NCBI GenBank assembly: GCA_016748015.1
Contig: JAAOMT010000521.1
Coordinates: 187,024 to 251,023, forward strand
Source: Geosiphon pyriformis
Lineage: Eukaryota > Glomeromycota > Glomeromycetes > Archaeosporales > Geosiphonaceae
Length of the DNA stretch: 64,000 nucleotides
Direction of reading: 5' to 3'
The position numbers and the translations under genes are program-made. The notes under the pieces are model-generated. The model saw nothing but the letters and a program-made list of their open reading frames with translations. It was not told the DNA's origin and searched no databases. Positions within the stretch are counted from its first letter, which is position 1. Each line of letters opens with the position of its first letter. This document shows, piece by piece, positions 1-40,624 of this stretch.

Positions 1-214
1 TCAAAAAACTGACAATTGAAAATTGTTTTTTTTTTTTTTTGGCAGTCCTGTAGCAATAGTTACGTAACTGAAGACATATCTCATCATAATGGACCCTACC
101 TTGGAAATATGATGGGTGATTGCCCTGTTGAAAATTTTCTTTAATAAATAAATAATTATATATTATATATATTATATATTGGATATTTTTATTTCTACAT
201 TGGGGGAAATCTGG

Positions 215-2079: not shown

Positions 2080-3115
2080 AATTTTAAATGTAAAAAATAT
2101 TAAATAAAAACAAATTTCTTATTAATCTTATTGTCATTTTCTCTTTTAATTTTATCATTCAATTTTTATTCAAACTAATCAGTCTTTAAAAGTATCATTT
2201 TATTTAAAAAGTTTAGAGCAGGCGAATATTCATCATAACCAAAGTCAAGAATTGTATAGATCAATCTTCTCATCATCCATTCTTGGTCCTAGTCCTTCGA
2301 CATTACTCAACAATCGTGCAGTGAATAAAGTATGAACTGACAAAATATCAATGGGAAACTCGAAGCACTCAAATGATATCCTATCAAATAGAAGGACACC
2401 AATCCAGTCGATTGATTCTGGTCGACAAAAATTTGCAAACCAATTTTTTAGCTATTCGTAAGGTGGTATTTAATAGAATTATCGCTATCTTACTCACTAA
2501 AGTCGTTTCTGCAATCATCTTTGTGGGAAATTCAATTGAAGGTGGTACGTTTTACAATGAAAAAGGTTTATAAAAATTAAAACGAAAATTAATTAATTTC
2601 CCTTTGAATTTACAGCTTATGCAACAATCGTTGCACTGACATGGAAATTAAAAGTAATTTTGATGGATGAACTTTGGTAAATATTCTAATATTATATTTT
2701 CTTACTTGTACATCTCAGTCACTACATTCGGTGCCCCGAGGGTTAGTAACTTTCTATTTACCTGACTGGTCAACCAACTATTGAAAGTTCAACGAATCAC
2801 CTATTTTAACGATCACTTTCCACATTTTTCACCGCGTGAGGTTGGAAATTTCTTTTTGGAACATTTTGTGACAGAGTATTGTATCTTGCCAAGATCATGT
2901 TAATGTTCAACAGAAAAAAAAATGAGATTAACATTGTTACTGATGGCTAGATGTCAATTAAATCCAACTTCTTTTTATTATTTTTTTGATTTTCAAAGTA
3001 ATGCAATGCTGGTCAGTCAATTGATAATGTACCCAGGTGATTTTATACATAAAGGACCATATTTTGGATTAACAATGAATGATTGCAAATATATTAAGTC
3101 TAGTCAATTTTGACT
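2080..3115 (+). pseudogene. P1: decayed class 3 lipase-like gene
   Basis: This is a broken copy of the A/D lipase-like gene. A partial exon 1 (from about 2220), exon 3 (about 2335-2556), pieces of exon 4 (about 2616-2900) and exon 5 (about 2998-3090) can be aligned by eye with gene A. Exon 2 is missing. Exon 4 carries an in-frame TAA where A has a Glu codon after the Ser-Cys pair, and about 100 bp following it are deleted. The nucleophile motif reads G-N-S-I-E-G-G: Ser is present, but the preceding His and following Gly are changed. Its 3' flank (about 3120-3480) matches the 3' flank of gene A (about 7020-7490), so P1 and A look like an old tandem duplicate. Confidence 0.85.
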
Positions 3116-5351
3116 AATTATTGAAATTCAAAATTAATATTCAAAATTTAAAAATAGGCAAATCTTTTAAATATAATTTTATCATTTCACATGACTTGCA
3201 AATCTGCATATTTTAATTAATAAATTTTTGATATCACCCCTTCTATTGATCTATATATAGACTTTTGAAAACTTTAATTAATTAAACATTTTAATTAAGA
3301 ATCATAATAAAGAATACAGTCATGGGATTATTAAACTTATTCGATTCATGATCACCCATAATCAAATCTAAAACAACCTTCTAATTTTAGAATAATATAT
3401 ATATACATATTATTTCGAAAAATAGATTATTATAATGATTCTTATACAAATTGAAATTTAATTTTGACATAATAACAGCTTTATTAATTTTTGTTAAAAA
3501 TCGTAATTTTGAGAATAATTGCATCAGCTGATTATATTTATGTGGCCTTTGTTCTTTTATTATTTTCTAGTATTTGTTAGCTTGTTACTTTGATTTATAA
3601 CAATATTGAAATTTATATTGAAATTTTTGAAATCATTTATTTTTACAAATTTGTATCGAAAATTCATAAATAATTTATTAAATATTTTACTAATAATTTT
3701 TAATTTAGTTTAAATTTGCTTTTTATTTTAATTAAAAAATAACAGAAATAATTATAAATTTTATTAGATTTCTTTTTAATTTAAAATCATGATTTTAGAA
3801 TTGACTCATCTTTTATTATAAAATATATGTTTTGATAAATTTTTAGCTTTAAATGAATAAATGATTAACAAAAGATAATTTTTTTTTAATTAAAATATCT
3901 AATTTAAAAACTTTTTTATGTTATTTATTTATAATTCTTGGCAAAAAATACTGTCTTGAAATTCTCAATTTGTAATATTAAATTCTAAAATACAAAAAAA
4001 ACTTTGAATGATTAAACCTAAATGCAAATAACATTTTTTTTAAAAAGACTGGTTCAAATGGCAGATAAATTTGGTTGTTTATGATGTTTCAAGTAGAGGA
4101 AATATATTTTTGGCTAATTACAGAACCTATCATTGAAAACAATCTTTTTTTTTTTATTTTTTACAGATATATTTGAGATTTAAATTCTACTAATAACAGT
4201 TGTTCTTAATTATAAAAAAAGATATGACATTAATTTACGTTCAAGAACCATTGTTCAAATTGAAAATCAAGTTTTATAAAATTTTTAACATTTTAAAAGA
4301 TCGAGAAATTTATATAAGGTGTAGCCTGCTCCTTATCGAATCGATCTATCTTCTATTAACCTCTAATAAATATTCTCAAGTCTCTTTATTTCTTTATATT
4401 TGATTTGTGTTTTGATTAAAGTTTTAAAGTTATAAATATTTAACTTCAATTAATTATAAAGGATTTTTAAGGGATGTTGTTTGAAGGTAAAAGTCATGAA
4501 CTAGGCGAAAAATAAATCTGGCAAATTTAGATGAGTATTTTTTTGACAATAATTTTATTAGTCTTTTTGTTACAAAATATTAATTATGTTATTTCAAGCT
4601 CCTTACAATTAATATTTATTTAAGATACATAAGTAATCTTATGTCCTTGGTTATAAAAAATAGTTTTTATTCTGAAAATAGATGATCATAAATTGGATAT
4701 CAGGAAATTTTGATTCTTTTGAATTAAACTTATCAAGATAAAAATGTTTTTATCTCTATTTTCCATTTTTTGTTGAAACTTATTAAAATGCCTTATTCGC
4801 TTTTAATATGTATGGCTCTATTGTAAATTTTTTAAATAAAAATATTGATTTATGTTTAATTAATGTTAACTTTGAATTTGAAATAGAACATTTACTCATC
4901 ATGTCTTTTAAAAAGAAAGGTAAATGTTTCTTTATATTTAAATCGGGAGTATTGCTTTTATCATCTTAAGCTGTGTTTTAAAATATTTGACTATTAGAAA
5001 TATTTTTTTGGTATTTCACAAATGCAAGCTTTCATTTATTGATTTCTTTCCCTAGCTTTTTGGATATTGGTTGAGTCAGTTTTGGACTATAGATTGATTT
5101 TTTCATTGGATAGAGAAACTGATTCTCATGCATCTAATTTTTTCAAGTTAAAAAAAATTAACATTACTTTTTTTCTCAAATTGTAGCCTTTATTTTCATT
5201 AGTTCCGAGACCTTTCGCATTTGTTCGCAAGAAGATCCTTGATGTCTGTCAAACAAACAGACCCCGATCGTACATTCCGTGTGTTTATATAAATAACTTT
5301 TATTTTTTTGGTTTCCGAATACTTCAAGATCTAGCAGGAAAAAAATTTGAA
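3116..5351. other. Non-coding flank, partly inside the left inverted-repeat arm
   Basis: No gene is seen. From about 3990 onward the sequence is the reverse complement of the stretch ending near 22655. A small open frame at 4200-4403 has AT-driven composition and no recognisable motif. Confidence 0.6.
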
Positions 5352-6913
5352 ATGTACAAAATTTTCAATACCACAAATTTCTTAATAATATTATTGATAT
5401 TTTCCCTTTTAATTTTATTCTATAAAAGTTTTTCAATTTTTATTCAAACTCATCAATCTTTAAAAGTACAATTTTTATCATGGCCGAGTTTAAAAAGTTT
5501 GAAACAGGCGAATATACATTATAATCTAAGTCAAGAATTTTATAAATCAATCTTATCATCAATCCCTGGTCCTGGTCCTATTTCCTCGATATTACTCAAT
5601 AATCGTGCATTGAATGGAAAATCAAAACAATTGATTGATCTTAAACAGGATATTAATTTTTTTCGTGAATTAAAGTTGACGGCGCATTACGCCAATCTTA
5701 TATATTGCCCAGCGGACGGAATACCACCGGCAAATCCTAATAGCCGTTTGGAAGGTTTTAAATTATTTAGTTAAATTTGAAAATTATAAAAGGCTAATTT
5801 AATTAGTCTTGTTATTCTATCTTGAAGTTGGTATGGATTTAGAAGAATTCAGCAGAACATTGATTGTATACTTTAAGGGTAACAAAATTTATGTAAATCA
5901 AAATTTTCATCATCATCAACAACAAATTCTAATGAAATGAGAAATAATATGTTGAATTATTTAATTCACTAATCAAAGGACCTGAACTGACAAAAAATCA
6001 ATGGGCAACTCGAAGCACTCAACTAATACCCTATCAAATAGAAGATATCCAATCCAATCAATTGATTCTGGTCGAGAAAGATTGGCAAACCGAATATTCA
6101 GCTGTTCATCCGTTGGTATTTAGTACAATTATCAATGCGCTAATCGTCAGATTAAATGGTCAATCGCCAATTCAGAGAATCTTCTTTGTGGGACATGCAA
6201 TTGGTGGTGGTACGTTTTACAATGAAAAAAAATTAAAAAAATTTATAGAAAAAATTATTGATTTTCCAAAAAAAATTTACAGCTTATGCAACAATTGCTG
6301 GACTGACATGGAGAATTGAATCATTTTTGATGGACAGTCTTCATAATTATCCTCAAATTCAATTTTCTGCCTTGAAAATCTCAGCCATTACATTCGGTGC
6401 CCCGAGGGTTGGTAATGTTGTATTTGCCCGACTGGTCAACCAACTATTGAAAGTTCAACGAATAACTTATTTTAACGATCACGTTCCACATTTCCCCCCG
6501 CATGAGGTTGGAAATAACCTTTTGGAACATTTTGAGACAGAATATTGGATCTTGCCAAGTTCATGTGAGTGTTTAACAGAGGATAATAATGGAGAATATT
6601 CATTCTATGAGTGTAGGGGGTTTGACTATGGCGAAAAAAATTGGAAATACCATGATGAGTTATTTCCTAAAATCACGTTCCCGAATGGGGAAATGATTAT
6701 GTCTGGAGAAAATGAGGTTAGTCTTGATTAATCTCGTTACTGATGGCTAGAGGTCAATTAAAGCCAACTTCTTTTTATAATTTTTTATTTTCAAAGGAAT
6801 GCAATGCTGCTCAGTCAATCGATAATGTAACGGGTGATTTTATACATAAAGGACCATATTTTGGGGTAACAATGAATGATTGTAGTCCGAATAATATTCA
6901 ATTAAATCTTTGA
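5352..6913 (+). CDS. Lipase-like protein A (class 3 fold, Ser nucleophile replaced by Ala)
   Basis: Class 3 lipases hydrolyse acylglycerols with a Ser-Asp-His triad. Five exons are predicted: 5352-5754, 5828-5878, 5979-6209, 6283-6716 and 6797-6913. All junctions are GT-AG with consistent phase, giving 411 aa. Residues 9-27 form a hydrophobic segment (signal peptide or signal anchor), so it probably acts in the secretory pathway or at the cell surface. The motif is G-H-A-I-G-G, so the nucleophile position is Ala225 (codon 6197-6199). ITFGAPRVGN, Asp294 (FNDHVPHFPP) and His311 (EHFETEYW) are kept. A Cys-bearing C-terminal tail (ECNAAQSIDN, MNDC) is shared by all five paralogues. Hydrolysis by the usual mechanism is not expected. 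A binding or pseudoenzyme role is inference. Gene D is its inverted duplicate. Confidence 0.85.
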
Positions 6914-7559
6914 TGTTTGATTTTTGATTTTTATGGTACTTTTGAAATTCCAACTTATAAAAATACTTGAAAATTACACTAATTCGGTAAGAATGATTTA
7001 AATTAGAAAAGCAGCATTCAAATATAATAAGTCTAGTTAATTTTAACTAAATATCGAAATTGAAAAACTTGGCAAAGCAATCTTTGATTAAAAATCAATA
7101 TTCTAAATATAATAAAAATTTGATTTTAATATTTCACATGACTTGAATAACTTTTGAAAGTTTATTTTAACTAAAGCAAATTTGCATATTTTTGATATTA
7201 CCACTCCTATTAATCTATATAGACTTTTGAAAACTTTAATTAATTAAAGACAAACCAAGATTCTTTAAACATTCTGAAAATGTCGTAATTAAAGATCATA
7301 TTAAAGAATTCAGTCATTGGATTATTAAACTTATTCGATCCATGATCACCCATAATCAAATCTAAAACAACCTTCTTCTAGCTTTAGAATTTATGAAAAT
7401 AATATATTTACGTGTCATTTCGAATATTCCTTTGAAAAATAATTTATTAAAATGATTCTTAAACAAACTGAAATTTCATTTTGACATAATAATTTCCTCA
7501 AAAAAGCTCCAAACAATTATCTCAAAACTTCTCATATGTTTTTTCCTAATTTTACAAAG

Positions 7560-8475
7560 TGTACTAACTACCCTGATATCCACAATGGCCTTCCAATTGG
7601 ATATCTTGCATGAATGGCACGACATAGCTTATATGCCAATATGGGTATTGTGTTGTGAATCATGGAATCGAACATCTTATAGCTGAAGATGTGATTTTAA
7701 GAAAAATAGAAAAGATTAATTTATGAATAAGGTTTACTATCAAATTACTCACCGAATTTTAAATTCATCCTGTAGCTAATGGGTAAGAAACTTGAACTCA
7801 GGAGATATAATAATTTATTTCAAAGATGATTTATTAAAAGCTCAACTTCCACAAGACATAATTCCCTAGTTATATTTATTGTCGACCGATTGTCTTTGAA
7901 TCCTTCTCTCCAGATTAATCATTTATGGTTTAACCAAGTGTTAAGCATAGAAGATAAATATTTAGTAAAATTTGCTAGCTCTTATTTGAATAAAATCGGG
8001 CAAAAATATACTTAATTGGATATGGTGTTGGAGGAGGTGAGATGAGTGAATTGATTAATGAGTTAAGGTTTATAATTAATAGTAAAAAATTTTAAATCAA
8101 CCTATGCGATCTCGGCACTTTTATGGAAAATCGATAACCACCCGAAATATCTCTGAAATTTTTTAGTTCATCATAAGACAGAGTTTTAGCTAGGAAAGAC
8201 ATCTTGTTTACAAGATGTGCCAGAGATTTATAGGCTTACTCTGTTTTTTTATAAAGGTTATTATTGGGAAAGAAATGAGCTTTCAATAAATAATTTACAT
8301 CCTAGTAGAGCAAGTTTTGGTGAAAACGAGGTATGTTTTGTTCAAAAGGAATCCATTAAAATTTTTTACATATATTTCTATTTGCATCTGAAATTGATTC
8401 TCATTTTTTAGAAATGTAATTCAGGACAAACAATTCTGATGACCATATTTTGGTGTAACGATGAATTATCTCAAT
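7560..8475 (+). pseudogene. P2: decayed lipase-like copy related to gene C
   Basis: This is a broken relative of gene C. Exon 1 sequence is at about 7575-7695. A fused exon 2/3 with no intron between is at about 7795-8045, exon 4 remnants are at about 8100-8330 and exon 5 is near 8411-8470. Several in-frame stops are present. The part of exon 4 that would hold TFGxPRxGN and the catalytic Asp is deleted. The motif region reads G-Y-G-V-G-G. It lies downstream of A as C lies downstream of D, which supports the inverted duplication. Confidence 0.8.
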
Positions 8476-8489
8476 ATAAAAAATTTAAG

Positions 8490-9597
8490 TGTTTGAAGAT
8501 CTAATATTTAATTTCAGATTGAATTAGTATTCAATTTCTTTGGGTCAAAATAAATTTTATATTATATATATAATTTCTTGATTTGATTAATATTATTTAT
8601 TTCATATATTTTAATTTTTTTTTAATTTGTTATAATTTGATAATATTAATTCTGTTGAGTTTTTTATATAATCTAATTTTTTATTTTTTAAATATTTTAA
8701 TATGTATATATATATATATATAATCAAAGAGTACAAACAATTGTAAATCTAAAATATGTGTTAAAGTTCTTCAGTTCATTAATTAATACAAAGTGGTATT
8801 TTAAATGCTAAAATATATGTGATTTAAAATAAATAATATTATATTACTATTGGCTAATAAGCTTTTACTTAATATTAAAAACTTTACCAAAAACACTCAG
8901 ATTATTTTTAATATTATTTAAAGTAATTTTAAGAAAATATATTAAAAAAAGCAATAACAATAAAAACAAAACTAGACACAAAACCACAAAAAGCTTTGTA
9001 ATTTTAAGAATAAAAAGAGAAAATAATTTAATAAACTTAAATTTTGTACAATAATATTTAAAAAAGCTTAAATACAAACTTTATATGAAAATATTTTACA
9101 TTATTTTTATTAATGATTTTAGTTTTAACATAAGCCAAAAAATATTATTAGATATTAAAATAAAAACCACTTATTTAAAAAACTTTTGATATTTTATAAT
9201 AATTTTTAACTATCATCAGAAACAACATTTTTTTAAAAAAAAAAAAGTGTTTTAGTTTCTAGTTAATCAGTTCAATTTTTTATATCAAATAATCCAATAA
9301 ATAAATTAATAGAAGTTATATAGAAAAAAATAATTTTTTTAGCTTTTAGAAATGGTAATAATTGACTAAAATTCAACACATTAGAAAACAATACCAAATA
9401 CAAAAAAATTTATAATTAACTTGAAAAAAGATAAAAGAATTGTTTTTTACTATTTCGGCTTTTTTTGTCATTTGAGCGACTAAAAGAAGAAAATAACAGC
9501 TTGTTTACCAGCTTATAATTGAAAACCCCGAGGCTTTTTAAGATGGTAATAATTATACTAAGACTATTTTTAATGTGTCACTTTGAAGAGACTTCAG
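8490..9597. other. AT-rich stretch with no gene seen
   Basis: AT microsatellite near 8701-8722, poly-A and poly-T patches, and no conserved motif. The open frame on the minus strand at 8865-9077 is Leu/Phe/Ile-rich and fits AT composition better than a gene. Confidence 0.6.
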
Positions 9598-10646
9598 AAG
9601 AAGAAATATTTTAATTTAAAGCCAAAAAAAAATGCTTTTAGTTTTTTTTACTCTTTGCTCCAGTTGTGGTATAAAATTACAAAAGAAAAAGGGCTTTTTA
9701 TCTTTTATTTTCATTTTTATATTAAATGTTTTATTAAATATACTTATTATAATTTTTAAATTATTTATAATTAATAATATAATATTATAATATAATTTAC
9801 AAGCATTCTTAAATCTTGTTATATATATTTAAATATTGACAAAGCTAATATGTAGCAATTTTTAAAATTATTATTCTAAATAAAAAAATTAAAGATTAAA
9901 TATTATAAATAATGTATAATTAACAAAAATTAACATGAAATTATGATGAAATTTTATATACAGACTACAAAAAAGTTTTGAGTTAATATTTTGATGTAAA
10001 TTACAAAATAAATAAATTAATAAAAATAAAAATATTTATTTAATAAATCTTAAAAAATTGCATAATACTGTTATGTTTATTTATTATTATTTTATTTAAA
10101 ATAATTCTTAATTTAATTGCTAAATAAATTATCGGTTTTTTATAAAACACGATTTCAAATTAAAAATTTTTTGCTTAATAACAAATTAATTTGGCAAACT
10201 CTAAATCTGATTCTTTATTTATAGTTAAAAATGGTTATTATGGAGAAAATGTAAAGTTTACCTAAATAAGATAAGGTAAAAGGGGGTAATTTGGAAAATC
10301 AAGGTTTTAGCAAAATAAAATTCGCATGCGAGAATAAAACCCATGAAAGTATGTCATTTTGATACAATCCACCACAAAATTATTAACTTCGAAACAATAC
10401 AAATACCTTACGAAACTCCAAGAAATTCGAATTTAAGCTCTTCGGCTTAAGTGCATGAAATAAATATTATTAGATAACTCAAAATATAGGTCAAAGAGAT
10501 TAACAATGATTATTTCTAAACACTTTTTTCTGTGTAACCTTAGATTTTTAACCAAATTCTCTTTTATTTTATATTTTATACGATATTAAATAATATGATA
10601 TATTTGTTAAATTCAAATTGTATGACTTATTTTTTTGACTTTAAAC
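9598..10646 (+). repeat. R-block copy 1 (matches 41948-42984, same orientation)
   Basis: About 1.05 kb closely matches 41948-42984 in direct orientation with small indels. In the second copy the block runs straight into a pogo-like transposase relic. Here it stops about 20 bp before the conserved 5' flank of a Sel1 gene. It is probably the 5' part of a transposon or a flank carried with it. No coding potential is seen inside. Confidence 0.8.
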
Positions 10647-10666
10647 AAACAGATAATGTATTTCCA

Positions 10667-10998
10667 GAAGTTTTGTCAAAAAAAGTCATATCAATGAGCT
10701 ATTGAAATAAGAAATCACCAATCAAAAGTGTAGGTTTTCATTTAAATTGACAATTAGACAATCATAGCCTCTACGCCCTTTACAGTTATTCGATCTCCAC
10801 CCGTTTAAGCAATTTAAATGAGGGATTGAAGTCGCGTCTATTTTCAGAACTTTCTAGCATTTCAGATTTCTTCAAGACCTAGCCTTTTCGGGATTGTGTG
10901 CAAACCTTATTTATTAGCAAGACGAACTCTTTAAAAATTCTTCCTTGCCCTTACAAAATATTTCAAGTTTGACAATCCATTTTTGTTACTTGAAAATA
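10667..10998 (+). promoter_or_regulatory. Conserved 5' flank of Sel1 gene (copy 1)
   Basis: About 330 bp upstream of the start codon nearly match, in inverted orientation, the flank at 40289-40624. A diverged trace of the same region (the words TCCCGAAAA, GCTAGG and TTCTGAAAATAGAC) also precedes the Sel1 pseudogene near 32510-32565. This probably contains promoter and 5' leader; no specific factor site is recognised. Confidence 0.5.
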
Positions 10999-11730
10999 AT
11001 GTCTTCAACTTCATCAAACGAAAATGCAACTTCACCCCTCGATTGGTTAGAAGGAGCATTTATTGTCATCAATGAAAATTTGGCCCTATTTCCAGCTAGT
11101 GAATATTCAAAAGTTGCTGACTTGGTGAAAAAATATCTTGTACACAATCAGAAAACACCTGAAAACTTATTCAATTATTTGGATAATAAAAGTTCAAAGC
11201 GTTCAATAGACTATATTTTGTTCGGCTTTTGTTCAGAGCATGGGATTGGAACTGTTCCCAATTTCACAAAAGCATTTTTAGAATTCCAGAAAGCAGCGAA
11301 TTCAAAAGATTCTCTTGGACAATTCTTCTTAGGACATTGTTATGAAAAGGGAATTGGTACCTCTCAAGATCAAGAAAAAGCATTTGAACTCTATTCAAAA
11401 GCAGCAGAGGCGGGAGATACGACTGCACAAAGATCTTTTGGAAATTGTTATTTTTATGGATGGGGAACAAAGAAAAATTACGAAAAAGCCTTTGAACTCT
11501 ATTCAAAAGCAGCAGAGGCGGGTAATACACTTGGACAATACAATCTTGCAATTTGTTATGCTAATGGATGGGGAACAAAGAAAAATGACGAAAAAGCATT
11601 TGACCTCTATTCAAAAGCAGCAGAGGTGGGAAATACGACTGCACAAAGATCTTTTGGAAATTGTTATTTTTATGGATGGGGAACAAAGAAAAATCACGAA
11701 AAAGCATTTGAACTCTATTCAAACTCATAA
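10999..11730 (+). CDS. Sel1-repeat protein, short copy (243 aa)
   Basis: The single-exon frame starts at the ATG shared with the second copy (MSSTSSNENATS); an upstream in-frame ATG at 10945 is not shared. After about 75 N-terminal residues come five Sel1 units of 36 aa (consensus xAQYNLxxCYxxGxGTxKNxEKAFELYSKAAEAGNT, here described only by pattern). Sel1 units form alpha-alpha hairpin solenoids that act as protein-protein scaffolds. Beyond about 11723 similarity to the long copy (39062-40288) ends in mid-unit, after the residues FELYS, and a stop follows two codons later. The protein is therefore probably truncated at a duplication breakpoint. Units 3 and 5 are almost identical, suggesting recent unit duplication. 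The partner is unknown. Confidence 0.85.
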   Translation: MSSTSSNENATSPLDWLEGAFIVINENLALFPASEYSKVADLVKKYLVHNQKTPENLFNYLDNKSSKRSIDYILFGFCSEHGIGTVPNFTKAFLEFQKAANSKDSLGQFFLGHCYEKGIGTSQDQEKAFELYSKAAEAGDTTAQRSFGNCYFYGWGTKKNYEKAFELYSKAAEAGNTLGQYNLAICYANGWGTKKNDEKAFDLYSKAAEVGNTTAQRSFGNCYFYGWGTKKNHEKAFELYSNS

Positions 11731-13765
11731 TAAACCAAGTTCAGATAAAAATAACACTTTAATTTTAATCTATTAATATTCACCACCACTACAAATAATA
11801 ATATTAAAAATGTATTAAAAATTTTAATTTTAATTAATCAATTGTACAAAATATAAATTATGAAAATAACATAAAGCTAATTATTTTTGTTATAACTTGT
11901 TTAAACAACTTTTTAAGCTTAAAAAAAAGCAGGTTATGTTAATTTCTTTCTGAAAAAAAATATCAAAAAAGGTTGCATTAATTATTTATAATTAAAAATG
12001 TCATTAAATTTATAATATATAGAAAGTATATTTTATTTTGAAATTTTTATATATATTGATATAGCATGTAGGTTTCAAAATAAATTGTTAAATAAACAAT
12101 TTTTTTGTAACTTTGAAAAAATTCAGTTTTATATTGAGTTTACTTTTTACCATAATTTCTTGGTTAATAATATTTAATTTTTTTCATTTTTTTATGTAGA
12201 TTCTTTTCATATTAAAGAAATTATCACTAAATTGTTAACTCTTATCCGATTATTTTTATCTTCAAATTTTCAAATTTATTTTTTATATCAGACATTTACA
12301 CATGTGAAGACAGATGTTTTGGAAGCACATTTAATCAAACGAATAAAGACTATCTTGTTATCGTCAATAATAATTTTGTAAAAGTTACACAGTAAAATCA
12401 AGTCCTTAAGAATTCTAGAAATGTTTAGCAATTTAAATATAGATATATGTACATTTTTTAGTTTTTTACTTTCTAGGAAATTTATATTAAAAATTAATTA
12501 TTCATTTATTCATCCATTTGTTCGTTTATTCATTTTTTTTTGAATGTTTGAAAGGATAAAAAGAATTCATGCAGGTAAGGCGGTTTATTGTTTGATTTTT
12601 ATTAGAAATTCTCGATTGTCATTATTTATCTAAAATACTTACCCTGATTGGACTACTTGCAAATATTGATAACCTAGATTTTTTATGTTTTGAAGTATGT
12701 CAACTTGGTTTTATTAATGTCCCAATATCCGGAAGAGCTAAATATTTATTTTTTTGTAAAGTAATATTGTTAATTTTGTAAATAAAAATATTCTGCAACT
12801 GATTTTTCAAATACTTTTTAACCAAATGAGAAATTTCATGTTTGATCAAGTCAAAATATCTAACATTATTTATTTTTCAACTAGATTATTTATTATCAAA
12901 ATGCTTTTCGTGTATGATATTATAATTTTAATGAAGCCTTTATAAGCTCAATAATTCTAAGTTTAATTTTATTACTCTAATCTATAGTGCCTTGATTTGG
13001 TTCCATTTTCAATCACATGTTTACCGATTTAACATTATGAAACAAATAAATTAACTCTCTTTAAATGGACATTTAGTCAATTTGTCTTTATAATTTAAAT
13101 GTTTTTTTTTTTAATTTAAATATAAGATAATTGACTATTAATCAAAACTTTTTATTTATATATTATTTTTTACTTAAATATTTGAATTGATGTATAAACA
13201 ATGATTTTTGAAAATGTATTTTTTGAGTTAATGATGATAAAAATTTTTATAAAAAACTTATAATATTAATAATAATAACAAAACTTATATCTGGTCACCT
13301 TTTCATCTGCGATCACAAATGGGTATAAAATTCAGTGCTGATTTGAATTTGTTGAAAACACATTTCTTTAGGGACTGCATATTAAAATATCAATATTTTT
13401 TAGCAAATTTTTACGGTTTGTCCAATCATTCACTGATTGGTCAGGGAATCACCTGATGTCAAATTTTAGCTGTCGCACTCTCTAGTAATTGGGTTAAGAG
13501 GGAAAAAATACCATTATCTTTGCTAAACCTAATATTTCACGTAAATTTTTCAGATAACTCTCATGTAAGGGTTTTCATTTGCTTCAAAATATTTTGGCTA
13601 TTATAAATTTATATACAAAAAAATATTTTTTTTATTAATAACTTTAAAATTAACTTGAATGCATAAAAAATTGGCGTTATTTTATGTTAACTTTATATTT
13701 AGTTTTCAAATTTTAACACTCACAGTGAGATCACATTTTCAAAATTGTGGAAATATTATTCTCTA
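11731..13765. other. AT-rich intergenic region, no gene seen
   Basis: About 2 kb between the Sel1 gene and the 3' end of the minus-strand gene at 13766. No long frame, RNA-gene fold or ordered repeat was recognised. Confidence 0.6.
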
Positions 13766-15146
13766 TTAGAAAAAATATAAAATAACCCATAAAGTAACCA
13801 TAGCGAGCCCCGCCCCTAAAAAAGCTAATTTCAAGATACCAGTAGAATATTTCACTTTCTCCCGACTCTTCTTCATATAACCCAACCAGTCGGCCTTTTC
13901 TACAATGCGTATTGAATCACCTTCCATCACTAATTGCAGAAACTCCGATCTTTCGATTTCGTTAGGAGCATTCAAATAATTCATTGGGATTCTTGTGAGA
14001 AAATTATTAATTTGTGTCGTAGTGAGGGACTGATCTTTTTGTAAATTACGACGACACGATTGAATTGCGAAAGTCAAAGGAATATCGAAACTGGTGATTA
14101 TCATGGTTGATGTGGATGGAGAGAGGTGTTCGTATTGAAGTTGAAAATCACGATCATTTGAATTTACTTGGATCTTTACTGCAAGTCCTTTAGGTATAAT
14201 ATCAATTTCTAAAGCAATTTTTCAAATTCAATAGAAGATTAACTTTTACTTTTAAACCAGAAATTCTCTTCTTAAATTTAAATCCAAAATTTTAAATTTC
14301 AAAATACAAACCTTCAACCCTACTTTTTTTCAACTGTCGAGAATAAGTTTCAACTCCAATTTCTTTGTCGAGATTCGCAATAGTTAATTGAATTTTACGA
14401 TCAAACTCTTCTAAAATCTCAAAAGTGCCACCATTTTCATCAGTAAAAAATCCTACAATCACATCAAGAAATGAGCCTTTGGTCTCAGAATCTTTGAATT
14501 CCGATTTGACTTTTGGAACAAATTTCTTGAATTCATGGGCCAAAATTTTTGTTCTTTGTCCGGATCTTTCGTCCGAATGAATTTTGATATCTACATTTTT
14601 TAAAAAAACAATCGCTTGAATTCCATATACTGATGTTAACTCAATTCGAATTAATCCCGAAATTCCAAATTTTTCTTCTGACTCGGTTTGGCAGCAATCG
14701 GTTTTTATGGTAAATTTAGGCATAAGAAGTGAGGATTGATCTATGAATGAGGTAATCAGTGTTCTTTCACTCTCTGAAAATTCTAGATTTAGCCTCTTTC
14801 TAAAACCATTCTCGGATTGATTCTGAACCCTATCAACGAGGTAAAATTTTTCCACTTCAAAAATAGTTTCCAAAATCCAATTATCCTGTTTAACACCAGT
14901 CCATTTAAATCTAAGGATACCCCAATCAAGGGTAAGATGCATCCCTTCGATACGGCAAAATTTCATTCTTTGAGCCTCGTGTATGGAATATTTAATCTTA
15001 GTATTTTGATATTTACGTTCTTGTAATGAAATCCAATTCATGCATTCGATTGATTTCAATTCTATCACACGGCGTTTATTGGCCAGTGCGGTAAAGAATA
15101 GCTGGCAGAGGGTTAGGGTTAGACCGGCATTGTCAAAGATTTCCAT
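13766..15146 (-). CDS. Unrecognised tail-anchored protein (425 aa, two exons)
   Basis: Exons complement(14312-15146) and complement(13766-14208) join in phase 1 across a 103-bp GT-AG intron. The N-terminus (MEIFDNAGLTLTLCQLFF) is mildly hydrophobic. The middle is a mixed alpha/beta-like soluble region without a motif I recognise. The C-terminus ends in one membrane segment (about the last 22 residues, LKLAFLGAGLAMVTLWVILY), preceded by Lys/Arg, which suggests a tail-anchored membrane protein facing the cytosol. Codon use is less AT-biased than the surroundings, and the long intact frame argues for a real gene. It sits near the centre of the inverted duplication and is not itself duplicated here. 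Function is unknown. Confidence 0.75.
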
Positions 15147-15538
15147 TTTTTATCAGGAGTGAATATTTTATCAAGTTATTATGTGGCAGCAGTTATCTCA
15201 AGAAAAGATTTTATCAAAGAGAAACCATTTTCAATTGACAGGTGATGCCTCCAATTATCTGCATATGACACTTCCCTGAAAGAGAATTTTGTGTTTCCAA
15301 GGATTAGCAAAATTTCAAGCTAAACTACTTCAAGTTATCCAACGAGCCTATCATTATACATACCCAAAGTGATCATCGGGATTAAAATTTTTTTTTGCTA
15401 TCTCTTTATTTATATTATTGTGTATTTCGAATTATAAATATCTTTTAAAGATCATCTTTTTCGGAAATAAATGAATGTTTCATCAGAACAATTATTTAAT
15501 TTTGAGCCATAATTGAACAAGCAATCCAATTTTTTAAT

Positions 15539-17034
15539 ATGATCCCAAAAGAAAAATCTCGCGAGCGTAATTACAATACCTCAATCAATGGGATTTTTTT
15601 TTATGCTTTTTCATTTCTCTTATATCTATCTCTTATTTTATTATGCATTTCATTTTCACAAAGATATTCTCATCTGTCCAAGACAAGATTTGTAATGACG
15701 AATAACTTGGAAATTCAATGGCAAAAATTCAATCAATCAAAAATTTCAATAGAAAATTACTTCAAGACGAAACGTTCCACATTATATCCAGCAAAAAAGC
15801 CAGCCATACGTCTGAACCCAATCACAAGATCAATGGCTTACTTGATTAACCAGGCGTATTGTCAAGCTCAAACAAAATCTCAAAATCAAGAAGGTGAAAA
15901 GAAAATTATATTTTTTGTGTGGTGTCTTTTCTTTTGATGATTAACATTTAAAAATTATTCTGGAAATTTCTACTAGTTTTGATTTATACCAAAGTAATTG
16001 GAAAAGGATTGGTAATAATTTTTGTCGGTGAGTCATTTTAATAAAAGTATCTTGAAAACTTGATGATGAACAATTTTCTAAAGTTGATATTTTTCTTTAT
16101 TTGCATGGCTTTATTTGAATCAGGCCGTCTCTATACAAAAGAGCAATGGGCAAGCTTTCAACCAAATTTTGTTCCCTTTGTTGCTGAAGGTCTCGAGCCA
16201 AATAAATTAGTTTTAGTTAATGAAGATTGGTATAATACTGTGAAAAGTATAAGGGGCTCTTTATATAAAAAAATTAATTCAAATCTCTTTGATTATTATC
16301 CTAATATTGAAAGAATTTATTTTATTGGACACGGCGTTGGTGGTGGTGAGATTTAAAATCTCAAAAATCAATTTTTATTTCTCTTGAATTGATTTTTCAA
16401 TTTAAAACTCTAACGTAATATTATTTTAAATATTTTATAGCTTATGCAGCAATTGCAAGCCTGCTTTGGAAATTAGAATATTATAAATCAAATCACCGTA
16501 AAAAATCATATTTTGATCAGTGGGCTAATATTAAAGCTATCACATTTGGAGCTCCAAGGCTTGGAAATGTCCCTTTTGCAAAATTCATGAACCTCATATT
16601 AGAAGTTAAGAGGTTCACTTTGGGAAATGATCATGTGCCACATTTTCCTCCATCCCAATACAAGCATTTGATTTTAGGACATTCAGAAACTGAAATTTGG
16701 ATCGAAATTCTAGATTGTGATTGTAATGAATCGAAGGAAAATTATTGGGAGTGTCAAGGATTTGATCATGGTGCTAAACTATGGAAACAAGTTGCGAGGT
16801 CATTTGACAAGATTTCATGGGATGCTGGATATTTTGGAGAGAATCAGGTTAATTTTGAATATCATTTTAATATTTTGATAAATCAAAATAGGCATATAAT
16901 TATTTTGGTAAATTTCTCAGGAATGCAATATCGGACAATCAATCGTTAACGTTCCAGGATATTTCATACACAGTGGACCTTATGGTGGGTACACGATAGA
17001 TGATTGTGATTCCACTAAATCCTACGAGATTTGA
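15539..17034 (+). CDS. Lipase-like protein B (Ser nucleophile replaced by Gly)
   Basis: Five exons are predicted: 15539-15893, 15977-16027, 16124-16345, 16441-16847 and 16921-17034, all GT-AG and phase-consistent, giving 382 aa. The N-terminus has about 20 polar residues and then a hydrophobic segment (about 20-41), so a signal anchor is likely. The nucleophile motif is G-H-G-V-G-G with Gly206 (codon 16333-16335). ITFGAPRLGN, Asp273 (GNDHVPHFPP) and His290 (GHSETEIW) are kept. The second exon is 51 nt, as in A, D and E, and intron phases are the same. The tail ECNIGQS and DDC matches the family. B lies between the arms of the inverted duplication and is the most divergent plus-strand member. 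Loss of hydrolase activity is predicted; the role is unknown. Confidence 0.85.
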
Positions 17035-17526
17035 AATAAAGCATTCCAGATATATTTATATGGGTCAGCTTAGATTAAGCCCTAAAGTTCAAGTAACTCT
17101 GTGTGATTAATTGAAGATAATGGGTTAAATTAGGAAGGGATAAATATTTTAAAAGCATATATGTCAAAAAAATTAATATTTTTTTGGGAAATATAAAAGT
17201 CTTCGTATGAATAAATTAAGAGATTTTTGAATTTTTTTCTTAATTCGAGATTTTGAATGTTTTGTGGAATTTTCATTTCGCTCACAAGCATGTTTGTTTG
17301 AATTTTTTGTGAAATCATTAAATTCTGCAGTACAGGCAATTTTTAAGACTTTAAAAGTTGAGACTCGAATAAAAATAGGGCAAGAATTATTTAAGGAGAT
17401 CTTGAGGAATTTTTTCACCCATTATATAATTTATTACCATCCAGAAGTAATTCCAATAATTTGAGATAGACAACCTAATTAGAGATTCTTTGGTTGAATA
17501 ATTCGGTTCTCATTATCTATTAAATT
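17035..17526. other. Intergenic between convergent genes B and C
   Basis: About 0.5 kb between the 3' ends of two convergent genes. Open frames on both strands here overlap one another and show no motif. Confidence 0.55.
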
Positions 17527-18898
17527 TTATATTGAAAAGTTACTGCAATCATTCATTGTCACACCAAAATATGGCCCCATATGAGGTACCTCATCCTCAT
17601 CAGAAATTATTTGCCCTGCGTTACATTCCTAGAGAATTGAGAATCAATTTCAGATAAAAATAGATATATATATATATATATATTTAATATATTCTAATGG
17701 ATCACTTTTGAACAAAGCATACCTCGTTTTCACCAAAACTTACTCTACTAGGATATAAATTATCCATTGAAAGCTCATCTCTCTCCCAATTATAACCCTT
17801 ACACAAAAACAGATTAAGCCCATCAATCTGTGGAACATCTTGGGAACATTCACAAGATGTCTCTCCCAGCCAAAGCTCTGTCTCATGATGACTTAAAAAA
17901 TGTACGAAATATTTTCGTGGTGGATAATGTGGCAAAAAATCATTTGTATGTGTGATGCGATTTACAATGAGTTTCTCATTGATTAATTGAGCTAAACGAG
18001 TGTTTCCAATACGTGGTTGACCAAATGTGACTACTTGATAGCCGCTTGAAGAGTAGAAACCTTTTGGATAGTCAAAGTCGGTTTCGATTTTCCATAAAAG
18101 TGCTGAAATAACCGCATAGGCTGATTTAAAATTCCTGCTATTAATAACAAATCTTAACTCAGAATAATCAGTTCACTCATCCTCATCTCACCTCCTCCAA
18201 CACCATGCCCAATAAAGTATACTATTGCCGGATTTTCTTCCAATATGAACTGGCGTATTTTATTAAACATTTTATCTTTTATGCTTAACACTTCGTCAAA
18301 CCATAAACGATCAATCTGTAAAGAAGGATTTAAACGCAATCTGTCGACAATAAATGGAACTAGAGAATTTCGTCTTGTGGCAAGTTGAGCTTTTGTCCAT
18401 AAATCACCTTTGAAATAAACTATTATATCTCGTGAGCTTAAGTCTCTTACCACATTGGCTACCAGGGGAATTTAAAATTCTGTGAGTGGTTTTGAGAGTA
18501 AACCTTATTTAAATTTGAATCAATTAATTTTTTTATTTCTTACCTACAATCAAATCATTAGCTATAAGATGCTCGATTCCATTATTCACAACACAATATC
18601 CTAGATTGGCATATGACGCATGTCGTCCCATTCGTGCAAGATATCCAATCGAAAGGTCAGTCAAAATTTGTTTTGGTGGATGTCCAGGTAGTTGGTTAGT
18701 ACGCTTTGTAAAATTAGAAAAAAAGGCATGAGAAGTTTTGAGATTATTGTTTTGAGCTTTTTCGAGGAAATTATTAGGCCATATCGTGTCAAAATGAAAT
18801 TTCAGTTTGTTTAAATCTAAATAGGGTAAAAAAATCAGAATGATAAGTAAATTTATTAGATATTTCTTCCATTGAACTTTCTTGAAATCGCCTAACAT
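17527..18898 (-). CDS. Lipase-like protein C (Ser to Gly; one intron lost)
   Basis: Four exons are predicted: complement 18544-18898, 18192-18458, 17723-18120 and 17527-17628, with GT-AG sites and consistent phase, giving 373 aa. The start at 18898 puts about 12 residues before the membrane segment YLINLLIILIFLPYL; an upstream ATG at 18940 is possible. The second exon fuses what are exons 2 and 3 in A, B, D and E. The motif is G-H-G-V-G-G, with Gly204 (codon 18204-18202) at the nucleophile position. VTFGQPRIGN, Asp268 (THTNDFLPHYPP) and His285 (SHHETELW) are kept; these are the most canonical class 3 motifs in the cluster apart from the missing Ser. P2 and P3 are relatives. An AT microsatellite (about 17664-17686) lies in the last intron. 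Confidence 0.85.
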
Positions 18899-19349
18899 AG
18901 GGTAATATTTTCGTTGCAGTAGAAAAATCATTGTAATCATCTTTTTTTCATTACTTAAGGTGAAGGATATCAAACTATAAAATTTTCCTAAATTCTAAAA
19001 CTAGATGTTTTTAAATTTGATTGCCGGATATCGTGATATATTATGATTATTAATCATGGCATTTTTCAGGATTTTAAAAGAATCTTGGTTCTAATCTTGG
19101 TTTGCTTTTTAATTAATTAAAGTTATCAAAAGTCCATATAGATCGATGGGAACGGTGAAATGATAAAATCAAGATTCTATTATTTTTAATCAAAGATTGC
19201 TTTGCCAAGTTTTTAATTTTCGGTAATTAGTTAAAATTGAGTAGACTTATGATATTTGAAAGCTGCTCTTTTAATTTAAATCATTCTTATCAAATTAGTG
19301 TAATTTTAAAGTATTTTTATGAGTTGGAATTTCAAAAACGCCTTAAAAA

Positions 19350-20912
19350 TCAAATATCAAAGAATAATTGAATATTATTCGGACTACAATCATTCATTGT
19401 TACCCCAAAATATGGTCCTTTATGTATAAAATCACCCGGTACATTATCGATTGACTGACCAGCATTGCATTCCTTGAATCAAAAATAATAAAAATAAGTT
19501 CGCTTCAATTGACCTCTAGCTATCAGTAACAATATTTATCAAGACTAACCTCATTTTCTCCAGACATAATCATGTCCCCCTCCGGGTACAAGAGTTTGGG
19601 ATAAAACTCATGGTGTTTCCAATTTTTTTCGCCATAGTCAAACCCTCTACACTCATAGAATGAATATTCTCCATTATTTTCCTCTGTTAAACACTCACAT
19701 GAACTTGGCAAGATCCAATATTCTGTCTCAAAATGTTCCAAAAGGATATTTCCAACCTCATGCGGGGGAAAATGTGGAACGTAATCGTTAAAATAGGTGA
19801 TTCGTTGAACTTTCAATAGTTGATTGACCAGTCGGGCAAATACAACGTTACCCATCCTCGGGGCACCGAATGTAATTGTTGAGATTTTCAAGGCAGAAAA
19901 TTTAATTTGAGGATATTTACGAAGACTGTCCATCAACAATGATTCAATTCTCCATGTCAATCCAGCGATTGTTGCATAAGCTGTAAATTTTTTTTGGAAT
20001 TTTAGTAATTTTTTCCTTTAAATTTTTATAACTTTTTTTCATTGTAAAACGTACCACCACCAATTGCATGTCCCACAAAGAAGATTCTTTGAGCTGGCAA
20101 TTGAGCATTTAACCTGGCGATTAGTCCATTGAGAATTGCACTAAATACCAAACCATGAACAGCTAAAAAATCGTTTTGCCATTCTTTCTCGACCAGAACC
20201 AATTGATTAGGTCGGATTTGTTCTATTTCATAGGGTACTAGTTGAGTGCTTCGAGTCGCCCATTGATCTTTTGTCAGTTCAGGTCCTTTGATTAGTGAAT
20301 TCAATAATTCAACATATTATTTCTCATTTCATTAGAATTTATTGTTGATGATGATGAAAATTTTGATTTACATAAATTTTGTTACCCTTAAAGTATACAA
20401 TCAATGTTCTGCTGAATTCTTCTAAATCCATACCAACTTCAAGATAGAATAACAAGACTAATTAAATTAGCCTTTTATAATTTTCAAATTTAACTAAATA
20501 ATTTAAAACCTTCCAAACGGCTATTAGGATTTGCCGGTGGTATTCCGTCCGCTGGGCAATATATAAGATTGGCGTAATGCGCCGTCAACTTTAATTCACG
20601 AAAAAAATTAATATCCTGTTTAAGATCAATCAATTGTTTTGATTTTCCATTCAATGCACGATTATTGAGTAATATCGAGGAAATAGGACCAGGACCAGGG
20701 ATTGATGATAAGATTGATTTATAAAATTCTTGACTTAGATTATAATGTATATTCGCCTGTTTCAAACTTTTTAAACTCGGCCATGATAAAAATTGTACTT
20801 TTAAAGATTGATGAGTTTGAATAAAAATTGAAAAACTTTTATAGAATAAAATTAAAAGGGAAAATATCAATAATATTATTAAGAAATTTGTGGTATTGAA
20901 AATTTTGTACAT
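19350..20912 (-). CDS. Lipase-like protein D (Ser to Ala; inverted duplicate of A)
   Basis: Five exons are predicted: complement 20510-20912, 20386-20436, 20055-20285, 19550-19980 and 19350-19472, giving 412 aa. The frame opened by exon 1 (140 residues read past the splice site) is identical to that of A. Exon 3 differs from A at about 20 of 78 residues, while exon 4 is close again. The motif is G-H-A-I-G-G with Ala225 (codon 20067-20065). Asp294 (FNDYVPHFPP) and His311 are kept, as is TFGAPRMGN. The N-terminal hydrophobic segment is the same as in A. The C-terminus ends a few residues later than in A. It is predicted to lack ordinary lipase chemistry. The intact frame and motifs suggest it is maintained, although the duplication may simply be recent. 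Confidence 0.85.
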
Positions 20913-23726: not shown

Positions 23727-25052
23727 TTAATCATTATACATTGAAAGATTTAATTGAATATTATTCGGGCTACAATCATTCATTGTTATCCCAAAATATG
23801 GTCCTTTATGTATAAAATTACCCGGCACATTATCGATTGACTGTCCAGCATTACAATTCTTTTAAAGTCAAAAATGATAAAAATAAGTTCTCTTTCATTG
23901 ACATTTATCCATAAGTAACAATATTAATCAAAGACTAACCTCATTTTCTCCAGACATGACAGTGTTCTGAAACAACTTTTCATAAGATAACTGACCACGG
24001 TAAAAATGCATTACATTAGGGTATCTATAACCTATACACTCATACAATGAATATTCGCCATTATTTTCCTCTGTTGAACAATTGCATGAAGAAATCCAAT
24101 ACTCTATCTCAGAATGTTCCCAAAGGTGATTTCCAACCCCACGCCGTGGAAAATGTGGAACATGATCGTTAAAATAGGTGATTCGCTCAACATTCAATAT
24201 TTGGTTGACCATTCGGGCAAATATACGGTTACCAACCCTCGGGGCACCAAATGTAATGGCTGAGATTGCCAAGGGATAATCAGGTATGGCATAATATGGT
24301 ACAAATACCCATGACAGTGCAGCGATTATTGCATAAGCTGTAAATTCATTTTTTTTGGAAATTAATAATTTTCCTTTGAATTTTTATAAACCTTTTTGAT
24401 TGTAAAACGTACCACCACCAATTGAATGCCCCACAAAGTGGATTTTATAAATTGAAAATCGATTATCGTCTAATACAGGGCTTAATCTTTTAAATAACGA
24501 TTCACGCTCACGTAAAAAATTATTTTGCCAATATTCATCAACCAAGATCAATGAATTGAGTTTCTTTCCTGCTGGTTTTAAGGTTGTTAGCTGAGTGTTT
24601 CGAGTTTCCCATTGATTTTTTGTCAGTTCAGGTCCTTTGATGAGCGAATTAAATAATTCAAGATTTAATTCCTTATTTCGTAGTTGTTGTTATTGTTATT
24701 ATTGATAAAAAATTTGATTTATATAACTTTTATTACCCTTAAAAGACACAACTATTGCTTTGCTGGATTCATGTACGTTAATGCTAACTTCAAATTAGAA
24801 TAATAAAATTAATTAAATGAACCTTTTAAAATTCTCAAATTTAACTAAAAAATTTAAACCTTTAAAATGGGGATTAAAATATCCCAATGGCCTTCTGTTC
24901 GCTTCGCAATATATAAGATTCGAATAATGTGCCGCCAAGGTAAATTTTTGAAAAATATCTCTAGGAAGATCTATCAAATGTTGTGAATTTCCATTAGGCG
25001 AAAATATTAATAATATTAATAAGTAATTGGTTGGGTTGAAAATTTTATACAT
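23727..25052 (-). CDS. Lipase-like protein E (canonical GHSIGG kept, N-terminal deletion)
   Basis: Five exons are predicted: complement 24860-25052, 24737-24787, 24413-24634, 23940-24337 and 23727-23858, with GT-AG and consistent phase, giving 331 aa. This is the only complete member with the canonical nucleophile: G-H-S-I-G-G with Ser152 (codon 24425-24423), plus ITFGAPRVGN, Asp213 (FNDHVPHFPR) and His230 (EHSEIEYW). Exon 1 starts MYKIF like A and D, but jumps from the first membrane segment (LLILLIFS) to the sequence equivalent to A residue about 88, removing some 70-75 residues. What remains of the hydrophobic start is short (about 10-18). It could be an active but altered lipase, or inactive through the deletion. 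The start at 25052 is chosen by similarity; an open frame upstream to 25190 is not conserved. Confidence 0.8.
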
Positions 25053-32695: not shown

Positions 32696-33039
32696 CTCAC
32701 TTTGAAGGACAATATTAATAACATCTTGAAACATATATGTTGTTATGATTATCATTTTACTCCTGCAAAAATGTGCTTAAAAATTAAGCTTTATCTAAAT
32801 TGGGCCGCAACAATCTTAATAATTTAACCCCCGAGATCTACAACGTTACAAAGAAACAACGTCTTACCAAAAATAAACCATCTTCTCATTGTCTCTTCAG
32901 CGCACAATGCTGGGTATTACTAACAAATTGGCATAACTCGGATCATGTACTACCTTTTCTTTGTTTTGTGCCTATTTAGGAATCAATGAGAAATTTTCTA
33001 TAAATATAGTTAATTTTTTAGATTCAAAAAATAACAAAA

Positions 33040-33145
33040 AAACCATCTAATTTTAATAATAAACCGAAAATCAAAAATCTCATCAAATCTCAATAATAAC
33101 AAAAATCCACCAATTTCAATAATAACAAAAAATCCATCAAATTTC
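33040..33145 (+). repeat. Imperfect tandem repeat in the 5' leader of a Sel1 gene
   Basis: Roughly three copies of a 33-35 bp unit built from TTTCAATAATAACAAAAATCC-like sequence lie directly before the ATG at 33149. This would form an A/C-rich leader; a role in translation is possible but unproven. Confidence 0.45.
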
Positions 33146-33148
33146 AAA

Positions 33149-34051
33149 ATGATTTCAAATCTCCATCCAGAAAATTATATCAATGGTCCCTTGAACCAGA
33201 TCGCAAAAAGTTTCCTTGAGTCGATCGATCGTGGAGAAACTTACTGTAATATCGCGCTCGACATCCAAAACAATCTTGAAAGTCACAATCTTTCCCTGGA
33301 ATATCTAATTGAAAAACTCACGATTAGAACACATTATGTTCGACAGTTTAGATGCCTCCTCGGATTCTGTCATCAGTATATCAAGGAATGTTTTGATCCG
33401 ATAAAAGCATTTGAAGCTTACGAGGTTTCTTCCGATAGTGGTTACTCGTATGGCCATCTATTCCTTGGAATCTGTTTCGAGACTGAATTTGGCGTGAAAA
33501 AAAATCCAGAAAGAGCTTTCGAATTGTACCTGATGTCTGCGAATGATGGTAATGGACATTCCCAATATAGGCTTGCACGGTGTTATCAGCGTGAAATAGG
33601 AACCATTGCTGATATGGAAAAATCATTAGAATGGTTTCTTAGATCAGCTGAATCTGGTCACTTAGGTGCCCAAAATAACGCCGGATGCTTTTACAAATCA
33701 GGATTAGGTACCCAGCGAGATCTTGTCAAAGCTTTCTATTGGTATCAAACAGCAGCCAGGGCTGGTCTTCCCTGTGCTCAATTTAATTTGGCCGAGTGCT
33801 TTCGAGAGGCACAGGGTACAAAAAGGGATGATAAAAGAGCATTATATTGGTACAAGAAAGCTGCAGCGGGTGATGATTTTAATGCCAAAATTCAGCTGGC
33901 TAACCTCGATAAAGAACAGGTCATCAAAAAGGAGGAGAAATACGCATCAAACGTTTATTTGAGCTCGGCAAGTTGTGGTAATCCTCAGGCTCAATTTGTT
34001 CCAAAGGAAATGTACAAAAATCGAAAATATGTTCTGGATCACGAACTGTGA
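33149..34051 (+). CDS. Sel1-repeat protein (300 aa), divergent from the duplicated pair
   Basis: Intact single-exon frame with ATG context AAAATG. About 90 N-terminal residues (MISNLHPENYINGPL) are followed by about five Sel1 units between residues 95 and 265. Recognisable cores are LGICFE, LARCYQ, AGCFYKSGLGT and LAECF, each followed by AFELY, SLEWF, AFYWY or ALYWYKKAA. Sel1 solenoids act as adaptors; in fungi of this type they are abundant and often linked to signalling. Base composition is clearly less AT-rich than the flanks, and codon use differs from the 10999 and 39062 genes, so it is a distinct and older family member. The partner is unknown. Confidence 0.9.
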   Translation: MISNLHPENYINGPLNQIAKSFLESIDRGETYCNIALDIQNNLESHNLSLEYLIEKLTIRTHYVRQFRCLLGFCHQYIKECFDPIKAFEAYEVSSDSGYSYGHLFLGICFETEFGVKKNPERAFELYLMSANDGNGHSQYRLARCYQREIGTIADMEKSLEWFLRSAESGHLGAQNNAGCFYKSGLGTQRDLVKAFYWYQTAARAGLPCAQFNLAECFREAQGTKRDDKRALYWYKKAAAGDDFNAKIQLANLDKEQVIKKEEKYASNVYLSSASCGNPQAQFVPKEMYKNRKYVLDHEL

Positions 34052-40288: not shown

Positions 40289-40624
40289 AATTTTCAAGTA
40301 ACAAAAATGGATTTCAAACTTGAAATATTTTGTAAGGGCAAGGAAGAATTTTTAAAGAGTTCGTCTTGCTAATAAATAAGGTTTGCACACAATCCCGAAA
40401 AGGCTAGGTCTTGAAGAAATCTGAAACGCTAGAAAGTTCTGAAAATAGACGCGACTTCAATCCCTCATTTAAATTGCTTAAACGGGTGGAGATCGAATAA
40501 CTGTAAAGGGTAAAGAGGCTATGATTGTCTAATTGTCAATTTAAATGAAAACCTACACTTTTGATTGGTGATTTCTTATTTCAATAGCTCATTGATATGA
40601 TGTTTATATGACAAAACTTCTGGA
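40289..40624 (-). promoter_or_regulatory. Conserved 5' flank of Sel1 gene (copy 2)
   Basis: Near-identical to 10667-10998 in reverse orientation. Similarity ends at about 40624, where the sequence beyond differs from copy 1. Confidence 0.5.

Follow-up and report, generated by a model that had tools for sequence, protein, structure and literature searches.

What keeps a set of lipase-like genes intact once the serine that should act as nucleophile is gone? The question is raised by four complete genes, A to D, in the 64,000-nucleotide stretch of DNA analysed here, called the window throughout (C301:187024-251023, in a genome of 124,688,122 bases on 406 contigs). The window's first 25 kb contain these four, a fifth intact lipase-like gene, E, and two decayed copies; part of this set is mirrored between the arms of an inverted repeat. 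By sequence, A to D belong to a family of class 3 lipase fold that spans the genome, is very large, at some 200 copies, and lacks the nucleophilic Ser. The intact genes and their key positions, including the nucleophile elbow (GHxxGG), are as follows.

Gene A: 5352-6913, forward strand; five exons (5352-5754, 5828-5878, 5979-6209, 6283-6716, 6797-6913), 411 amino acids; elbow GHAIGG with Ala codon GCA at 6197-6199; Asp at 6477-6479, His of the catalytic position at 6845-6847, Pro of the oxyanion position at 5981-5983.
Gene B: 15539-17034, forward strand; five exons (15539-15893, 15977-16027, 16124-16345, 16441-16847, 16921-17034), 382 amino acids; elbow GHGVGG with Gly codon GGC at 16333-16335; Asp at 16629-16631, His at 16969-16971.
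Gene C: 17527-18931, reverse strand; four exons (18931-18544, 18458-18192, 18120-17723, 17628-17527), 384 amino acids; elbow GHGVGG with Gly codon GGT at 18204-18202; Asp at 17941-17939, His at 17583-17581.
Gene D: 19350-20912, reverse strand; five exons (20912-20510, 20436-20386, 20285-20055, 19980-19550, 19472-19350), 412 amino acids; elbow GHAIGG with Ala codon GCA at 20067-20065; Asp at 19786-19784, His at 19424-19422.
Gene E: 23727-25052, reverse strand; five exons, the first shorter, 331 amino acids; elbow GHSIGG with Ser codon TCA at 24425-24423; Asp at 24167-24165, His at 23810-23808, oxyanion-position Pro (FKGP) at 24632-24630.

The Pfam scan of the lipase-like proteins, covering A, B, C and E, gives Lipase_3 (PF01764) scores of 53.7, 62, 67 and 68.7 bits, respectively, at a cut-off of 22, with no other Pfam domain above cut-off in these four. 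Against solved structures, B alone matches the Thermomyces lipase 1dt3 at 3.9e-7, and a profile of ten relatives matches Rhizomucor 1tgl at 1.7e-36. The replaced elbow position in A to D aligns with the Ser of GHSLGG in 1dt3, which we take to be S146, confirming an earlier note on this DNA in its placement of the nucleophile; entry 1gt6, the same lipase as 1dt3, has GHALGG at the elbow. That note had also reported the substitutions themselves, and they are found at exactly the codons it gave: Ala in A and D, Gly in B and C, in intact spliced frames with one terminal stop each and in-phase GT...AG introns, leaving E as the sole gene of the five with Ser. TFG[AQ]PRxGN, NDxxPH and ETExW are present in A to D, again as described before, and the catalytic Asp is present in A to E. 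The catalytic His is also kept, at a different place from the one proposed. In the alignment with 1tgl, the His preceding ETExW falls on that of LHAGSEYW, presumably non-catalytic, and the His of the exon-5 motif HxGPYFG, present in all of A to E, falls on that of DHLSYFG, which we take to be the catalytic H257. The oxyanion position after FxG is occupied by Pro in A, D and E, Arg in B and Asp in C, and by Ser or Thr in none. By sequence family, A to D belong with the class 3 lipases, but they lack the Ser and the oxyanion Ser/Thr of the enzyme.

The serine loss, first described as a feature of four genes, extends far beyond them. A Lipase_3 profile search of the genome yields at least 163 matches with 150 of 748 candidates scored, a lower bound on family size. 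A degenerate elbow pattern, GH-x-x-GG followed by a splice donor, which counts places and not proven genes, occurs at 252 places, with none for the reversed-pattern control. Gly is encoded at 172 of these places, Ala at 23, Ser at 32 (28 AGY, 4 TCN) and another residue at 25, so that 220 of the 252 are without Ser; among the first 100 matches listed, the other residues are Phe, Tyr, Glu, Asp, Ile, Cys and Asn. Gly codons (GGN) persist despite the 28% GC of the window. Chance or assembly error as the source of the missing Ser is ruled out by the number of loci. Prokaryotic relatives, chosen as a control by the TFGQPR peptide independently of the elbow, are readable at 59 of 61 loci, with 58 Ser and one Gly, the latter being GHGLGG in L126, a Gemmatimonadetes metagenome-assembled genome. 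Viral contigs give 22 pattern matches, none of them confirmed as a relative.

Examining what is conserved alongside the altered elbow required readable genes, of which 66 were assembled as a partial sample from 30 profile-search loci and 40 of 118 listed regions, which together contain 150 elbow places, four being picked for Ala or TCA. Their elbows comprise 44 Gly, 15 Ser, 6 Ala and 1 Cys. Within the Gly class, Asp is present in 44/44 genes and the catalytic His in 40/43 (three Asn), the HxxE/W motifs are found in 42-44/44, with the His and Glu of HxxE in 44/44, and all this at a median exon-4 pairwise identity of 36% (minimum 23%, 946 pairs). Across all readable genes, Asp is found in 64/65 and His in 56/60, the other four having Asn, a repeated replacement at the catalytic His place seen in C401_1412201, C401_1499703, C370_2238198 and C303_201083. 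A GGT donor and an in-phase acceptor follow the elbow in 55/66 genes. FRGT is the usual oxyanion motif; a survey by regular expression, which may read into introns, recovers FxG-T in 5/9 readable Ser genes, all of them basal in the tree, in 2/26 readable Gly genes, one doubtful, and in 0/5 readable Ala genes. One paralogue with both GHSLGG and FRGT lies at C401:877821.

The retained non-hydrolytic role that the earlier note favoured is still the best reading, given intact frames, a kept Asp and true His, and an absent nucleophile. We propose that hydrolase function would have been lost once, early, when the nucleophilic Ser was exchanged, mostly for Gly, along with the oxyanion Thr, and that the Ser-less family would then have expanded under selection to about 200 copies. 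The proteins would be secreted or N-terminally anchored and would bind a lipid ligand (a fatty acid, a lysolipid or a sterol-like molecule). This ligand would sit in the former acyl pocket and lid segment, its polar end held by the small elbow residue and the retained Asp-His pair, and the lid segment in exon 3 would differ among copies. Secretion or anchoring of A to D is suggested by an N-terminal hydrophobic stretch present in all four, and lipid binding as the job of the Ser-less family has, in our judgement, an even chance of being right. A second suggestion, that these genes regulate an active paralogue, is weak with E as the partner, because the oxyanion position of E is Pro (FKGP), unlike the FRGT of the basal GHSLGG genes.

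Retention of Asp and His also bears on a different explanation, in which the family is still catalytic, with Asp and His together serving as a general base towards water or another group in the space left by Ser. Catalytic partners usually drift after catalysis is lost, and an Asp without exception and a His in 40 of 43 Gly-class genes, at 36% median identity, would be what continued catalysis predicts. The oxyanion Ser/Thr is gone too, however, with Thr in 2 of 26 readable Gly genes, the elbow also carries Ala, Cys, Phe, Tyr, Glu, Asp, Asn or Ile, and the Asp and His motif may be structural, leaving continued catalysis a doubtful possibility.

Selection on the genes was gauged by the ratio of nonsynonymous to synonymous substitution rates (dN/dS), obtained by a simple counting method without base-composition correction. 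The ratio is 0.2-0.33 in deeper, saturated pairs, 0.72-0.79 in the young A/D/E group (A-D 0.73, A-E 0.79) and 0.36-0.84 in other unsaturated Gly/Ala pairs, the C401 pair giving 0.84; in the core exon 4 of unsaturated Gly/Ala pairs it is 0.21-0.62. The core of the Ser-less family is under purifying selection, and constraint on the family is very probable. The earlier note had named dN/dS as a check on retention: overall the ratio does lie below 1, but the youngest pair does not show a low value. In 7/7 Ser-less or mixed pairs the ratio is higher for exon 3 than for exon 4 (exon 3/exon 4 of 1.45/0.62, 1.16/0.47, 1.14/0.45 and 1.66/0.77 in the first four, 0.54/0.21, 0.67/0.35 and 0.63/0.43 in the remaining three), and the sole Ser pair gives 0.48/0.41. 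Replacement and silent changes differ between exons 3 and 4 at p 0.03 (three young pairs pooled, counts rounded), a value that covers the contrast between the exons and not an exon 3 dN/dS above 1.

This contrast speaks for fast-turnover surface or secreted decoys, in which a variable lid on a constant scaffold would diversify against a host or a competitor or in self-recognition. In the young Ser-less pairs and A-E, exon 3 reaches 1.14-1.66 against 0.45-0.77 for exon 4, and the clusters, inverted repeats and conversion, together with the N-terminal hydrophobic stretch, fit such a role. Significance attaches only to the exon 3-exon 4 contrast, older pairs show exon 3 values of 0.54-0.67, and a decoy has no need for strict Asp-His retention, so we regard decoys as unlikely. 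Simple decay, with Ser loss as a sign of relaxed selection after amplification, is very improbable: the ratios of the young A/D/E group and broken copies (probably including L072, a Ser gene) speak for it, but one residue, Gly, occupies 172 of 252 elbows, Asp and His are kept, core dN/dS is below 1, and the elbow splice is in phase in 55 of 66 genes. The broken copies in the window are two.

Copy F, mirror of E: 2088-3110, forward strand; stop right after the start codon; elbow GNSIEG.
Decayed copy of C: 7440-8480, forward strand; elbow GYGVGG at 8018, stops in the flanking frame.

When Ser was lost is addressed by a maximum-likelihood tree of 68 rows, built with the elbow residue masked and rooted on 1dt3. 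At its base stand two Ser clades of 6 and 2 rows, where the FRGT/GHSLGG genes lie, and the remaining clade of 59 rows (96/81) contains 44 Gly, 8 Ser, 6 Ala and 1 Cys, with Ala (GCA) nested within. A to E fall in a nine-row group (100/99), itself part of a 22-row clade (100/98) in which L072 (Ser TCA) is the one other row that is neither Gly nor Ala. Approximately unbiased (AU) tests, with groups defined after the tree was viewed, reject all Ser as one clade (p 2e-5), E and L072 placed with the basal Ser genes (p 8e-5), and four nested AGY Ser genes placed with the basal ones (p 9e-4). The nested Ser of E is TCA, and that of the basal genes AGY.

The simplest account of these sequences would have Ser and the oxyanion Thr lost in a single early event, with Gly as the usual substitute for Ser, and Ala, occasionally also Ser again, arising later; several parallel losses inside the 59-row clade may also have occurred. 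GGY to AGY and GCA to TCA are each a single-base step, and an AT-rich genome would be expected to favour the former. A nested Ser does not imply activity: E carries FKGP, Asp is missing from the C387 TCA gene, and exon 3 of L072 is interrupted, as judged from three frames. The earlier note's view of at least two losses at this locus gives way here, the rooted tree putting the Ser-less state far before A to D with Ala and the Ser of E nested, and a single old loss is likelier than two local events. That the losses were recent, independent and confined to this locus, with E as the surviving active enzyme retaining Ser, Asp and His, is scarcely credible given a 22-row clade in which, apart from the window genes, only L072 departs from Gly or Ala and, among those genes, only E does, an AU p of 8e-5, FKGP in E, and a TCA codon unlike the AGY Ser of basal genes.

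Several observations weigh against the lipid-binding proposal. The youngest pairs evolve fast (A-D at 0.73, the C401 pair at 0.84, exon 3 at 1.14-1.66), as relaxed constraint could also produce; F and the copy of C have decayed; and the N-terminal stretch of E is weakly hydrophobic. Strict gene-model criteria, namely long stretches of the hidden Markov model in three exons plus the splice, single out 21 of the 66 genes, and the genome-wide elbow count is one of places. Conservation of Asp and His would equally fit an unknown reaction.

The probable identity of the host provides a context that fits the lipid-binding proposal. Chitin synthases in the genome mark it as fungal. PF08354 has 0 matches and the type-I fatty acid synthase (FAS) signature is absent, while PF00109 gives two matches only, near each other on one contig, corresponding to one small set of ketoacyl synthase exons. 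This suggests loss of type-I FAS. Subtilisins are few, with 10 Peptidase_S8 matches in the genome, and the window carries three Sel1-repeat genes.

10918-11727, forward strand: Sel1-repeat gene, in inverted repeats of 93-96%.
39065-40351, reverse strand: Sel1-repeat gene, likewise in inverted repeats of 93-96%.
33035-34048, forward strand: Sel1-repeat gene.

FAS loss and Sel1 abundance are both reported for arbuscular mycorrhizal fungi in the portions consulted of PMC4771724, PMC6123716 and PMC7550596. From these two features, we infer that the host is probably an arbuscular mycorrhizal, fatty-acid-auxotroph fungus (Glomeromycotina). Against this placement stands PMC7550596, which reports comparable numbers of secreted lipases for saprotrophs and symbiotrophs, with no symbiotroph excess. 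A tentative scenario is that a FAS-less fungus turned a lipase into a lipid-capture set of about 200 Ser-less, Asp-His-keeping members with a fast-changing lid, gathering or sensing host or environmental lipids, and that Ser came back in a few copies by a GCA-to-TCA change of Ala. If the host is arbuscular mycorrhizal, the family becomes a candidate for how such fungi capture host lipids. An 18S-5.8S rDNA copy, with the small subunit and 5.8S confirmed by Rfam, is present at L071, the only place matching the 18S primer pattern (one mismatch); its 18S presumably bears many C-to-T and G-to-A like changes.

Two further features of the lipase locus concern its history and its edge.

5350-5899, mirrored near 20914-20365: tract without differences between A and D, with divergent flanks.
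1-144, forward strand: 3' end of another member of the family, whose start lies before the window, with elbow GHCVGG (Cys, TGT) at C301:186463 (L036).

A and D are 90% identical overall, with identical exons 1-2 and an exon 3 differing at 14% of nonsynonymous sites; their flanks outside 5350-5899 differ by several percent, and the tract reads as a recent conversion tract within the inverted repeat. A and D are not independent copies, because they lie in inverted-repeat arms with zero differences over that tract. The L036 gene, having Cys at the nucleophile place and retaining the Asp and His motifs, is conceivable as a Cys hydrolase. Between the lipase copies, two open frames on the reverse strand (14295-15149 and 13769-14221), probably one two-exon gene, have 0 Pfam matches. 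Elsewhere in the window, an AT-rich direct repeat pair lies at 9753-10214 and 42108-42558 (94-98% identity), with a Tc5-type transposase DNA-binding domain just past the second copy (42996-43457), and composition shifts near 46 kb from mostly 19-33% GC on the left to 28-38% on the right, the lipase genes lying in the AT-rich part.

The closest known relatives are the fungal class 3 lipases and feruloyl esterase A (PF01764; 1dt3, 1tgl, 1uwc), which share with the family its fold, the GHxxGG elbow, the NDxVP Asp, the C-terminal catalytic His and TFGxPRxGN. In contrast to them, A to D lack the nucleophile Ser and the oxyanion Ser/Thr, and have an extra Cys-rich C-terminal part and an N-terminal hydrophobic stretch. 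The plant proteins EDS1, PAD4 and SAG101 share a core resembling a lipase, to which the family profile gives a weak match. The window proteins are 331-412 amino acids long, and the C-terminal EP domain of the plant proteins is not found in A, B, C and E, which show only Lipase_3 above cut-off. Insects have non-catalytic lipases as well, mostly, we assume, of the PF00151 type. These yolk proteins, together with triad-deficient venom lipases, are proposed in the consulted part of PMC7240578 to bind or carry lipid; they too are lipase homologues with lost catalytic residues, a functional analogy only, and they are not known to be multiplied 200-fold in one genome. Vn50, according to the section consulted of PMC13301370, is a serine protease homologue with Ser replaced by Gly that acts as a competitive binder, resembling the family in being a Ser-to-Gly enzyme homologue and differing in its unrelated protease fold and in being a single protein. 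Entomophthora muscae, with 348 Lipase_3 genes amid an expansion in Entomophthorales, likewise combines a very large PF01764 family with an early-diverging fungus; those genes are reported as lipases, the catalytic Ser not being discussed in the consulted part of PMC11105155, whereas here Ser is mostly absent and only 10 Peptidase_S8 matches occur. A Ser-less Lipase_3 family of this size was not found in the open-licence literature, a weak negative. Lipase_3 counts in early-diverging fungi are taken as digestive capacity, and they could mislead badly, because 220 of 252 elbow places here are without Ser. Strict Asp and His retention without a nucleophile in dozens of divergent paralogues offers a clear natural test of the roles of these two residues outside catalysis. 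The known kind to which the family belongs is pseudoenzyme expansion, and what sets this case apart is its scale and the intact Asp-His pair.

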